Below are positions 7,704-11,052 of a stretch of 64,000 nt of DNA, piece after piece. Positions within the stretch are counted from its first letter, which is position 1. Every line of letters starts with the position of its first letter. The translations under genes were made by a program, and so were the position numbers. The notes below the pieces were generated by a model that was not told the origin of the DNA, did no database searches, and was given only the letters and a program-made list of their open reading frames with translations. Source of the DNA: Actinospica robiniae DSM 44927 (lineage in GTDB: Bacteria; Actinomycetota; Actinomycetes; Streptomycetales; Catenulisporaceae); NCBI RefSeq assembly GCF_000504285.1, contig NZ_KI632511.1:4957372-5021371 (forward strand). The letters are read 5' to 3'.

Positions 7704-8258
7704 TCAGTTCTCTACGAATTCGACGAAGTCCGCACCCAGCAGCTCTCGCACTTTCGCCAGCGCGCGCATCGATTGGGATCGCACCGCGGTCGAGCTCAGC
7801 CGCATCACGGCGGCGGTGTCGTCGATGCTGCGGTCCTCCCAGTAGCGCAGCACAAGCACGGCGCGGTCCTGCGCGGGCAGCCGGCGCAGCGCGTCCAGCA
7901 GCGTGAGCCGCAGCGGGACGTCTACGTGCTCTGCCGTGTCCGCGGCGGCCGAGGCTTCGAGTCCGGCGCGTTCGGTGCTGCTCTTGCGCCGGCTCGATAT
8001 GAAGGCATTGACCAGGATGGTCTGGGCGTAGCCGGCCGGGTTCTCGATTCCGTTGCGCCGCCCCCATTTCGCGTACATGCGGCCGAGCGTCTCCTGCACG
8101 AGGTCCTCGGCCTGGTTCGTGTCGCCGCCGGTCAGCAGGCAGGCGGTGCGGTACAACGGCGTACCGCGGGACGCGACGAAGGCATGGAAGTCCTCAGGGT
8201 CCGCGGCGGACGGGTCGCGCTCCGTGCTCGATGGTTGCTCCACACCTTTATGACGCAC
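7704..8258 (-). CDS. SigE-family ECF RNA polymerase sigma factor
   Basis: Short (184-residue) extracytoplasmic-function sigma factor. Region 2 is seen in FHAFVASRGTPLYRTACLLT and TNQAEDLVQETLGRMYAKWG; region 4 as LRRLPAQDRAVLVLRYWEDR followed by SIDDTAAVMRLSSTAVRSQ. The spacing and the AEDLVQET signature match the actinobacterial SigE-like group. The start is a GTG at 8258 with no obvious ribosome site, so the exact N-terminus is uncertain. The single-pass protein gene follows 16 bp downstream. Upstream, within 45 bp, begins the left arm of the large inverted-repeat island. Confidence 0.9.
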   Translation of the reverse strand: MRHKGVEQPSSTERDPSAADPEDFHAFVASRGTPLYRTACLLTGGDTNQAEDLVQETLGRMYAKWGRRNGIENPAGYAQTILVNAFISSRRKSSTERAGLEASAAADTAEHVDVPLRLTLLDALRRLPAQDRAVLVLRYWEDRSIDDTAAVMRLSSTAVRSQSMRALAKVRELLGADFVEFVEN

Positions 8259-8300: not shown

Positions 8301-8799
8301 CTAGTGCGAGTTGATGATCGGCCGGATGCTGGTGGGGTGGGGGCTTGTCGGGTCGGGGTGGTCGTCGGGGTGCGGCCGGCCGCTTCGCGTCGCCCGTTTC
8401 GCCTGACCACCCGCCCCCCGTTGCGTTGGCAGGGCGGCCTGCGGTTTCAAGATCGAAAAGCGCCGCTGGCAGGCCCTTCTCTCGGAGAGATTGCCGGGTC
8501 TCTGTAGGTGCTCGCGAGGCGGGGCTGGCCGGAGTTCGGGGTGGTGGGGTGCCGGGGGCGTGCTCTCTCCTCGGTCGGTCCCCGGAGGCAATCAGGAACC
8601 TGCCGGGAGCTCAAGCGGCGGTGGCTTCCGCTGCTGGATCTTGCATCGCGCCGCTTGACCTCCCGGCAGAACCCTGATCGGGCTTCGCCTGCCCGACCGA
8701 GGAGAGAGCACACCCCCTGAGGGTCCGGTGCGAGCTGCGCTCGGGCCGAGTCCCATCCCGTGGCCCGGCCGCGCTCGATCCGGAAGAATCCTGCATCAC
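8301..8799. repeat. Left arm of a 0.5-kb inverted repeat
   Basis: This stretch reappears as its reverse complement at 9302-9793. Shared blocks include the outer end CTAG-N-GCGA-N-TTGATGATCGG, GGCCGCTTCGCGTCGCCC, CTCGGAGAGATTGCCGGG, the hairpin at 8560-8711, GTGCGAGCTGCGCTCGGGCC, and the inner GATGCAGGATTC motif. By eye most blocks agree at over 80 percent with small indels. No convincing reading frame is conserved in both arms and no transposase is present. Confidence 0.85.
8560..8711. repeat. Long hairpin within the left arm
   Basis: Arms 8560-8620 and 8649-8711 are near-perfect reverse complements: GTGCTCTCTCCTCGGTCGG at one end pairs with CCGACCGAGGAGAGAGCAC at the other, and the inner CTGCCGGGAGCTCAAGCGGC pairs with GCCGCTTGACCTCCCGGCAG (one mismatch). 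The loop is about 28 bases and includes GATCTTGCATCGC. The stem is about 60 bp. Confidence 0.9.
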
Positions 8800-9301
8800 C
8801 GTTCTAGACAGCTCTTCGCTTCCCTACTGATTCAACGCCGGGCAACACCCCCGAGTGCCCGGAAATCTCCACGATTTTTACTTTTCCGGCAAACACCGGA
8901 TTCGCGGCTTTTGTCGGTGGTGGCGTCTAGCATGGAAGAGTACGAGGGTCGGGGCTTGTGACAGGAGGGAGGTGGACGGGGTGGCTGGGCAGAGGGCGTC
9001 AGGGGTACGGCCGAAAGCGATGCAGGATTTCCCCTCGGCGTGCGACCGGGCCGCGCGATGCCGTGCAGTACGTGAGCTCCGGGTGGATCGGATCAGAGTG
9101 ATGCAGAATCCTTCCGCATCGAACGCGGCCGGCCTGCGGGATTCTGCCGCGAGATCTGGGATCGAGGCCGATCACACCAAGGCGATGCACGATTCAGCAG
9201 CAAGCCGGGCGGAGCGAACCGGGGCGATGCAGAATTCCACCGCAGGCACGACCGGAGCACCGACCTCCACGCGGATCGAGGACTGGGATGGCGGGATCAC
9301 A
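8800..9301. other. Central spacer of the repeat island with recurring GATGCA motif
   Basis: About 500 bp with no recognisable gene. The first 130 bp are less GC-rich (ATTTTTACTTTTCC near 8873) than anything nearby. From 9019 the motif GATGCA(G/C)(A/G)ATT recurs on the plus strand at 9019, 9100, 9184 and 9226, and again at 9304 and 9454 inside the right arm. Intervals of 81, 84, 42 and 78 bp are near multiples of 40-42. An open frame (8855-9391) runs through them, but its composition looks unlike protein. Confidence 0.7.
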
Positions 9302-9793
9302 GCGATGCAGAATCCTTCCGCATCGAGCACGGCCGGACCACGGGACAGGACCCGGCCCGAGCGCAGCTCGCACCGGACCCCCAGGGGGTGAGCTCTCTCC
9401 TCGGTCGGGCAGGCGAAGCCCGATCAGGGTTCTGCCGGGAGGTCAAGCGGCGCGATGCAAGATCGAGCATCAACCCAGGCCACCGCCGCTTGAGCTCCCG
9501 GCAGGTTCCTGATTGCCTCCGGGGACCGACCGAGGAGAGAGCACACACCCGCAACCCGACCACCCCCAACGTCAGCCCGCCCCACCAACGCCAGCACCCC
9601 ACAGACCCCGGCAATCTCTCCGAGGGAAGGCCCTCGCCGGAGGCGAGATCTTGAAACCCCAGCCCACCCCGCCAAAGCAACGGGTGGGCGGGCGGTCATA
9701 CAAACAGGGCGACGCGAAGCGGCCGCCCACACCCTGACCCGACACGTCATCCCACGCTCCACCAGCGCTCAGCCGATCATCAAATCGCGCTAG
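9302..9793. repeat. Right arm of the 0.5-kb inverted repeat
   Basis: Reverse-complement copy of 8301-8799. It ends nine bases before the stop of the M20 peptidase gene at 9803, with the same CTAG-N-GCGA terminus as the left arm. Relative to the left arm it has a different loop in its inner hairpin and small indels, so the two arms are diverged rather than freshly copied. Confidence 0.85.
9388..9544. repeat. Long hairpin within the right arm
   Basis: Arms 9388-9452 and 9484-9544 pair through GCTCTCTCCTCGGTCGG / CCGACCGAGGAGAGAGC and TCAGGGTTCTGCCGGGAGG / CTCCCGGCAGGTTCCTGA. The sequence is the inverted counterpart of the hairpin at 8560-8711, giving four copies of one 60-65-bp unit in the island. 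Confidence 0.9.
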
Positions 9794-9802
9794 AGCTACT
9801 GC

Positions 9803-11052
9803 CTAGGGCTTCAGCCAGGTCAGCGCGGCGACGACGAGCGCCTCCACGCCGGTGCCGAGGGTGGGCTCGATCAGCGGCGCGAACTCGGGCGAGTGGTTGG
9901 CCGGGAGGGAGTCGAGCCGGCCGGCGGCGAGGGCGTTGAACACAAGGTCCGGCTCGAGGCCGCCCCAGAACCAGAACACCGTCGGCACGCCGAGGCTCTC
10001 GCCGAACACTCCGACGTCCTCGCTCGCGGTCACCAGCGGCATCGGGTACAGCCGCTGCGGGCCGAAGTGCTCGGTGAACGCGGCGAGCGTCTTCGCGGTC
10101 GCGTCCGGGTCGCTGATCAGCGCGGGGGCGCTGGCGGACCACTCGATCGCGGGTTCGCGGACGGCTCCGCCGGCGGCCGACTCGGCCCGCACGATGCGCT
10201 CGATCGCGGCGCGGATCAGGTCCCTGGTCTGCGGCGAGTAAGACCTGGTGTTGATACCGAGCTCGGCGGTGTCCGGGATGATGTTGTCCTTCGTGCCCGC
10301 GTGCAGCCGACCGACCGTCACCACAGCGGCCTCGGCCGGGGGCACCTCGCGCGCCACGATGGCCTGCAAGCGGGTGACGACGCTGGCGGCCATCAGCACC
10401 GGGTCGATCGCGGCCTCCGGGCGCGAGCCGTGGCCGCCCCTGCCGAACAGGGTGACCTTCGCCGAGTCCGACGCGGCCATGAGCGGGCCGCTGCCGTGGC
10501 CGATGAAGCCGGCGGGCAGCGGGGCGACGTGCTGGCCGAGCACGATCTCGGGCTTCGGGAAGCGTTCGAACAGGCCGTCCTCGACCATGCCGCGGGCACC
10601 GGTGGCCAGTTCCTCGGCGGGCTGGAAGACCACCAGCAGTGTGCCGTGCCACGCATCCCGGGCCGCGGCCAGCAGAGTCGCCGCACCGACCAGTGCGGCG
10701 GCGTGCAGTCGTGGCCGCAGGCGTGCATGACGGGCACGTCGTTGCCGTCGTGGTCGACGCCGCGTGCGGTGCTCGCATACGACAGCCCGGTCTTCTCCTG
10801 CACCGGCAGCGCGTCGAAGTCGGCCCGGAGCATGACCACCGGGCTGTCCCCGTTGTGCAGCACGCCGACCACGCCGGTGACGCCGACCTGCTCGGCCACC
10901 TCGTCGAACCCGGCGGCCCGCAGCCGCTCGGCGAGCAGCGCGGCCGACCGGGTCTCCTGCAGCGAGAGCTCAGGGTTCTGATGGAGATCTCGGTAGAGCT
11001 CGGCCAGGTCCGCTCGGATCCGCTCGAGTCCCGCGGTCACCGTCTGCGCCAT
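9803..11052 (-). pseudogene. M20-family amidohydrolase/peptidase interrupted by a -1 frameshift
   Basis: Metal-dependent amidohydrolase (M20D, hippurate hydrolase/IAA-amino acid hydrolase type). The first frame runs from ATG 11052 through the metal-binding region (VVMLRADFDALPVQEKTG, PVMHACGHD). The second resumes as HAAALVGAATLLAAARDAWH, VVFQPAEELATGARGMVEDG and continues to the stop at 9803 with the dimerisation domain (FGRGGHGSRPEAAIDPVLMA). The break is at about 10705, exactly inside the conserved GHDxH motif: the minus strand reads GACTGCACGCC where GACTGCCACGCC would restore the frame and the ligand His. A single lost C therefore inactivates the gene, unless it is a sequencing error; both halves are otherwise intact. 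Confidence 0.85.

Follow-up and report, generated by a model that had tools for sequence, protein, structure and literature searches.

A 1.5-kb inverted-repeat island in Actinospica robiniae as a probable gene-less derivative of a DUF222-HNH element

The genome of Actinospica robiniae DSM 44927, an Actinospica-type actinomycete assembled in a single contig of 9.92 Mb, contains an island of nested inverted repeats that very probably belongs to a MITE-like, non-autonomous family, present in many copies and derived from a longer element, in which long inverted repeats enclose a DUF222-HNH endonuclease gene. The observations behind this reading are that the unit is bounded, that it has relatives bearing the nuclease gene, that a full copy has been duplicated while a short copy is species-specific, and that both the fold of the arms and the leader of the core are constrained. 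In the following, the window denotes the whole stretch of 64,000 nucleotides that was analysed, and the features of the island are collected in Table 1.

The island and its copies in the genome

The first-pass annotation had described two 0.5-kb arms in inverted orientation, each with a hairpin of its own, bounded by the rare tetramer CTAG and lying close to the flanking genes, and all of these features hold. The left arm and the inverted right arm are 83.7% identical over 504 aligned columns (E 1e-134). The left hairpin consists of the stems 8554-8578/8693-8717 and 8591-8620/8649-8678, and the right one of 9384-9408/9526-9550 and 9423-9452/9484-9513. For the left hairpin, z-scores of -10.5 as RNA and -9.0 as DNA were obtained, and none of 200 shuffles was equally stable. 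CTAG occurs 21 times in the window, compared to 79.8 times expected from shuffles. The distances from the outer ends to the neighbours are 42 bp to the sigma-factor frame (8258) and 9 bp to the M20-peptidase frame (9803).

Table 1. Features of the island and its immediate neighbours, in window positions.
Feature	Position	Strand	Remarks
Whole non-autonomous element	8301..9793	+	left arm, leader/core, right arm; strand set by leader
Left arm, 499 nt	8301..8799	+
Right arm (inverted left arm)	9302..9793	-	inverted alignment
Nested hairpin in left arm	8554..8717	+	imperfect, conserved internal loops; fold, covariation
Nested hairpin in right arm	9384..9550	-	repeat map, alignment, covariation
Core	8800..9301	+	leader, residual gene start, short-repeat array
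Leader, 30 nt	8909..8938	+	TTTTGTCGGTGGTGGCGTCTAGCATGGAAG
Stretch like start of HNH element	8778..9000	+	inner arm end, leader, first codons; 68-70% identity
Short-repeat array	9020..9314	+	GCGATGCANRATYC type; starts 9020, 9101, 9185, 9227, 9305
Outer end CTAG	8301..8304	.	pattern YTA + two variable bases + GCGANTTGATGATCGGCTG
Second outer end CTAG	9790..9793	.
Neighbour, sigma-70-type factor (PF08281, PF04542)	7704..8258	-	start faces element
Neighbour, M20-family peptidase/amidohydrolase (PF07687, PF01546)	9803..10633	-	stop faces element

That the arms might match a known coding family on translation was rejected, the five open frames inside the island giving no Pfam match at E 0.1. A known RNA family was likewise rejected, since Rfam returned miRNA models alone, far under their cut-offs. 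The 0.5 kb separating the two arms, the core, is conserved and belongs to the element. Besides the array given in Table 1, the short repeat starts once more at 9455 and twice on the minus strand (8796 and 8646). The element holds 8 repeats of this type, compared to 3 in the remaining 62.5 kb of the window.

A search of the genome with the arm, which had been proposed as a check, uncovered a large family. Matches were found at no fewer than 41 further places, each of at least 366 nt and with 82–89% identity, a lower bound because the best 40 candidates were scored. The hairpin motif, with up to two mismatches, is present at 392 places, while the reversed control gave 3. At four motifs per element, this corresponds to an estimate of ca 98 elements, and the gene-less copies are estimated to make up ca 1.4% of the genome. 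The 30-nt leader, with up to three mismatches, was found at 80 places (control 0), and 87 core matches of at least 150 nt were obtained, a number that includes the HNH-bearing elements discussed below.

We have read the layout of 86 other regions, and most of them have the same order of arm, core and inverted arm as the copy in the window. The exceptions are one region near the right end of the contig that has no copy, and some regions with shortened or split arms. Where there is no large insert, the spacing between the outer ends is mostly 1.35–1.6 kb. Within the core, the leader is the most conserved 30-nt stretch, with a mean column identity of 0.941 compared to 0.865 elsewhere.

Alignment of 128 intact arms gave a mean pairwise identity of 87%. 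The mean is 0.871 among left arms, 0.873 among right arms, 0.873 for the two arms of the same element and 0.871 for arms of different elements. There is thus no sign that gene conversion has acted on the arm pair within an element. Since the arms are about equally similar whether left or right and whether within one element or between elements, the star-like pattern of identities suggests a single burst from a master with near-identical arms.

The leader matches are unevenly distributed along the contig, with just 3 of the 80 at 5.0–7.9 Mb and 2 at 0.57–1.9 Mb, compared to 10 up to 0.5 Mb and 15 beyond 9.0 Mb. The contig starts inside an arm of the family (L044, 1-1104), and this contig end may be a break caused by the repeat and not the true chromosome end.

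We now turn to the hairpin, for which 25 sequences from the main and the divergent subfamilies in three genomes were aligned (both hairpins in the window, 12 of the main type drawn from a list selected to be diverse, and 11 others). The structure was taken from the fold of the window copy; one mismatch column was counted as an additional pair, and the small stems in the loops and a lone pair were omitted. Changes on both sides were found at 15 of 44 pairs, in a total of 54 cells, and neither number was reached in any of 500 shuffles, which had means of 6.5 and 15.2; as the structure derives from one of the aligned sequences, the count of paired cells is biased towards it. Control structures slid along the alignment gave 1–3 pairs. 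The number of further pair types is a weaker signal, reached by 36 of the 500 shuffles. The internal loops of the hairpin are conserved too. The fold could act as DNA or as RNA, and we favour folded single-stranded DNA, because the same fold is present on both sides of the nuclease gene in the longer relatives.

Nuclease-bearing relatives of the island

Among the regions read, 11 clearly have more widely spaced arm pairs, and in four of these (L050, L054, L060 and L059) an HNH gene is enclosed. Three of the genes are open frames, of 424, 415 and 452 aa for L050, L054 and L060, directly behind a related leader, and the one of L059 is broken by a Mutator-type transposase gene. In a protein search, 13 such HNH gene loci were recovered from the genome. 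Eight belong to the main type, and insertions have disrupted two of these; the other five show 38–42% identity. In each of the six undisrupted main-type genes, the frame is open and retains the motif HAHH...N...C..HH. Arm-type sequence, scored as arm matches or inverted repeats of at least 120 bp, lies on both sides at 12 of the 13 loci. At the remaining one (4366825) there is an arm downstream only, split by an insertion, and no convincing arm was found upstream. In Actinospica, the full element is ca 2.1–2.7 kb long and has the order arm, conserved leader, DUF222-HNH endonuclease gene and second arm, the arms being roughly 300–550 bp with a nested imperfect hairpin. The paired arm stretches within full elements are 78–97% identical.

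Eight of the HNH proteins were scanned against Pfam. Five of them exceed the cut-offs of both PF02720 and PF01844, which places the parent gene in the DUF222-HNH (13E12-type) family, and three, all main-type copies, exceed that of PF01844 alone. One of the proteins passing both models (L176) is 97% identical to a PF01844-only copy. The predicted structure of the HNH protein is poor (mean pLDDT 43), and its relatives in the PDB cover the HNH region only. As in the IscB/OMEGA nucleases, an HNH nuclease gene here lies beside structured non-coding DNA. However, the IscB model scores 20–23 bits against a cut-off of 175 and hits the HNH motif only, and RuvC plus HNH over the cut-off was not found.

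The relation of the window copy to the full element can be followed along the sequence. From 8778 to 9000 the two are alike over the inner arm end, the leader and the first codons. After 9000 the remainder of the HNH gene is absent, and the short repeats and then the right arm follow. The end sequence GATTGATGATCGGCTG is common to the short element and the full element of L050, which has only 3 of the short repeats. The variable linker of the HNH protein contains a protein-level repeat, AVKDPSAHVAGMKDPA, the DNA of which may, as judged by eye, be related to the short repeats of the element. In the proteins of L050, L060 and L169, the linker before the HNH domain has varying numbers of DPSAHVAGMK-like repeats, and a DNA-level repeat may be expanding inside the HNH reading frame.

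One full element has also been duplicated recently. The two divergent copies, located at 311 kb and 3.23 Mb, share 99.3% identity over 2,189 bp and lie in unrelated flanks. A 425-bp piece at their left end is 97% identical, and the similarity stops at TTA on that side; at the right end, one of the copies is short of some terminal bases.

MITEs are short, gene-less and present in high copy number, have inverted ends, and derive by internal loss from longer gene-bearing elements. Their ends are usually a few tens of bp, and ca 1.4–1.5 kb is large for a MITE. The island resembles them in being short, gene-less and high-copy, with inverted terminal repeats, many dispersed copies, and ends shared with the longer gene-bearing element from which it probably derives. 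It differs in its arms of ca 500 bp with nested hairpins, and in that the parent found encodes a DUF222-HNH endonuclease in place of a transposase. The autonomous partner that the first-pass annotation had proposed to look for has been found in part: a longer element with the same arms exists, but it carries the DUF222-HNH gene and no transposase gene.

Outer ends, insertion sites and distribution

Of the 116 outer ends, 110 were taken into an alignment, where the first three positions are Y in 94%, T in 87% and A in 84%, followed by two variable bases and then GCGANTTGATGATCGGCTG. The variability of the two bases after YTA speaks to some extent against the proposed reading. YTA is present at both ends of the element, which fits insertion at YTAR/CTAG. 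As to a target-site duplication, which had been named as something to look for, YTA does stand on both sides, but no duplication was proven, the empty site described below not being exact to the base. The TA may belong to the element and not to a duplicated target, since the bases next to the junction are unaligned at that single empty site.

The outer ends differ between the subfamilies. In members of other subfamilies (L178 and L183 in the sister genome G002, L171 and L172), the arm is shorter by about 145 bp at its outer end. The start of L171 is near GATCAAAGTCAAAGGCGCC, and a series of GTCAAC-like repeats lies outside L172.

For the copy at 6.44 Mb, an empty site was found in both of two sister genomes. 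In G001, the left flank (88% identity) and the right flank (86%) are adjacent on one contig, and in G002 they are adjacent likewise, with 79% and 86%. On realignment, the flanks are 13 and 6 bp apart in the two genomes with no element in between, and ca 20–50 of the flank bases adjacent to the element are unaligned. The suggestion of a non-autonomous mobile element is supported by ca 98 copies, sharp YTA boundaries and one copy whose empty site is seen in two sisters. For the copy in the window, no empty site was found in the sister genomes; its two neighbour genes are not adjacent there, and the similarity around the M20 gene begins at window position 9813. Paralogous flanks within the genome were also considered as empty sites, and among the loci read, no match spanned the junction in any of 37 joined flanks, the joins being one base too long. 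One such candidate, for the copy at 7.16 Mb, was rejected because the paralogous flank ends at an apparent gene stop codon. In 4 of the 37 joined flanks a gene-like frame stays open from one flank to the other, in each case for a single one of three joins, and the short copies apparently lie mostly between genes.

In Actinospica acidithermotolerans, an HNH protein with 43–46% identity lies between arms that are 71–72% like those of the source genome. When the best 15 candidates per genome were scored, G001 had at least three arm matches and G002 at least six. A contig scan for wider relatives gave 3 loci, all of them in A. acidithermotolerans. A search of 394 genomes of the class at E 1e-30, with the best 4 candidates per genome scored, returned the own genome only. 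In the plasmid collection, the HNH protein had one match, covering 19% of its length, and the element had none.

DUF222 genes are much more widespread: of 148 genomes sampled from the class (the own genome included), 111 have them, often in many copies. Among the 10 genomes listed for the family f2, which we infer to be the Streptomyces family, there were none. Strong arms were found at none of the top-scoring DUF222 loci of 30 other actinomycete genomes; four of these gave weak matches of 58–69%, and four loci were shortened by contig ends. Inverted arms as a general rule for DUF222 genes were therefore rejected. Nor were such arms found at HNH loci of a sister genus, probably Catenulispora, within the same family (0/10), a weaker comparison in that the match spans the HNH end only and little upstream DNA is covered. 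As far as tested, the arms thus appear to be confined to the genus Actinospica. REP13E12/HNH endonuclease/DUF222 is named as a repetitive category in mycobacteria (PMC10589994). The parent gene belongs to this DUF222-HNH/13E12 group by both Pfam models, but strong flanking inverted arms set it apart from the loci of the 30 other genomes.

The arm divergence of 13% is close to that of the flanks between species (12–14% for G001), which suggests that the burst probably does not predate the separation from G001. We also noted one gene that borders an element in each of two species, L110 (3410-4505) in the source genome and L183 (2626-3724) in A. acidithermotolerans, with 72% identity between the genes; the two elements belong to different subfamilies. 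This could represent either a common landing site or an old insertion.

Possible modes of mobilisation

In the mechanism that we propose, loss of the HNH gene from a full element would have left an arm, the leader, the first codons, a repeat array and the second arm, and this short form would have multiplied, at YTAR/CTAG-like sites, to ca 98 copies. An intact copy would supply the DUF222-HNH protein, which would act in trans on the short elements. It would recognise the folded arm, the leader with the short repeats, or both, and would nick or cut there and so start transposition; the freed element would then join a YTAR site, with insertion at the TA within CTAG-like sites. Recognition of single-strand palindromes is known from the IS200/IS605 and integron systems. 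The wider proposal, a new class in which a DUF222-HNH endonuclease mobilises long-inverted-arm DNA by recognising folded imperfect hairpins, is made tentatively, as a plausible reading that we judge to be somewhat short of probable.

Among the open-access titles and abstracts listed, none gave an account of inverted arms or gene-less copies for the DUF222-HNH family, and none of those listed on DUF222, 13E12 and HNH elements describes how they move. The island family suggests a kind of mobile DNA in bacteria that is not yet described. It places the HNH gene in a bounded, duplicated unit with folded arms and with about a hundred gene-less copies, and it offers the 1.5-kb element as a defined substrate together with a candidate enzyme. 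If the proposal is correct, a family that is very common in actinomycetes, and is still labelled as of unknown function in Pfam, would acquire a role.

The HNH gene could also be a passenger, considering that the arms are confined to the genus (0/30 DUF222 loci and 0/10 same-family HNH loci). The main rival to HNH-driven mobilisation is a conventional TA-targeting transposase, for example an IS630/Tc1-like one, that moves both element forms in trans with the HNH gene as cargo. We consider this unlikely, although it deserves to be weighed. Enzymes of the IS630/Tc1-like kind insert at TA, and the YTA at both ends together with the CTAG-like target would fit; the restriction of the arms to one genus, while DUF222 genes are widespread, points in the same direction. 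Furthermore, 7 of the 11 wide arm pairs (L052, L057, L072, L081, L101, L106 and L107) enclose a transposase gene. These seven enzymes are, however, of five kinds (IS3-like, DUF772/DDE, DDE group 1, IS4-like and ISL3, where L057 and L081 were classed via the 99%-identical copy L101), and no match to IS630-type models is listed among those scanned. The one present three times (L057, L081 and L101) is more than 99% identical between copies, while the arms differ by ca 13%. Because of this and of the variety of kinds, we read the transposases as probable later IS insertions. Finally, it is only the HNH gene that lies behind the leader, in the expected place, across the divergent subfamilies and in two species.

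A second rival to the nuclease-driven scheme, and in our judgement an improbable one, is that the repeats are kept for a host function, as structured RNA or as REP/BIME-like terminators or spacers, with mobility being secondary. The covarying hairpin and its strong fold could be understood in this way, and there is a crude bias towards the 3' ends of genes. The neighbouring gene has its end towards the element in 72 of 104 flanks, including 25 where a frame extends into it, and its start in 27, with 5 undecided; the 30 neighbour pairs are convergent in 14 cases, tandem in 14 and divergent in 2. Selection against insertions into promoters would, on the other hand, give the same bias. On the other side of the balance, the corresponding intergenic gap of both sister species lacks the copy at 6.44 Mb, the leader and the HNH gene start have been retained, and no Rfam family reaches its cut-off. 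The long structured RNA of the first-pass annotation is possible as a by-product of the element.

A decayed composite, that is, two inverted IS copies around a lost cargo, had also been suggested; it would account for the two inverted arms, but it has next to no chance of being correct, since arm, core and arm recur as a single block with a conserved core, the five island frames lack a Pfam match, the HNH parent accounts for the layout, and the transposases inside arm pairs are of many kinds and look later.

REP palindromes are landing sites for IS110-type elements. With REP/BIME sequences the island shares the multi-copy imperfect palindromes and, in its family, arms that also serve as IS110-type landing sites; it is much longer, and its palindromes are part of a 1.5-kb unit. 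The arms are a multi-copy landing pad for IS-like insertions. In a survey of 23 gaps chosen by eye from the region map, the same IS-like insertion repeatedly occupies one spot inside the arms, at arm positions of about 401–407 in L069, L089 and L123, about 346–350 in L060, L069, L121 and L126, about 362–379 in L084, L097 (twice) and L104, about 101–126 in L062 and L103, about 401–411 in L063 and L072, and about 365 in L059 and L071. Those scanned were of the IS110 type (L069 and L062) and of the IS4 type (L084 and L063).
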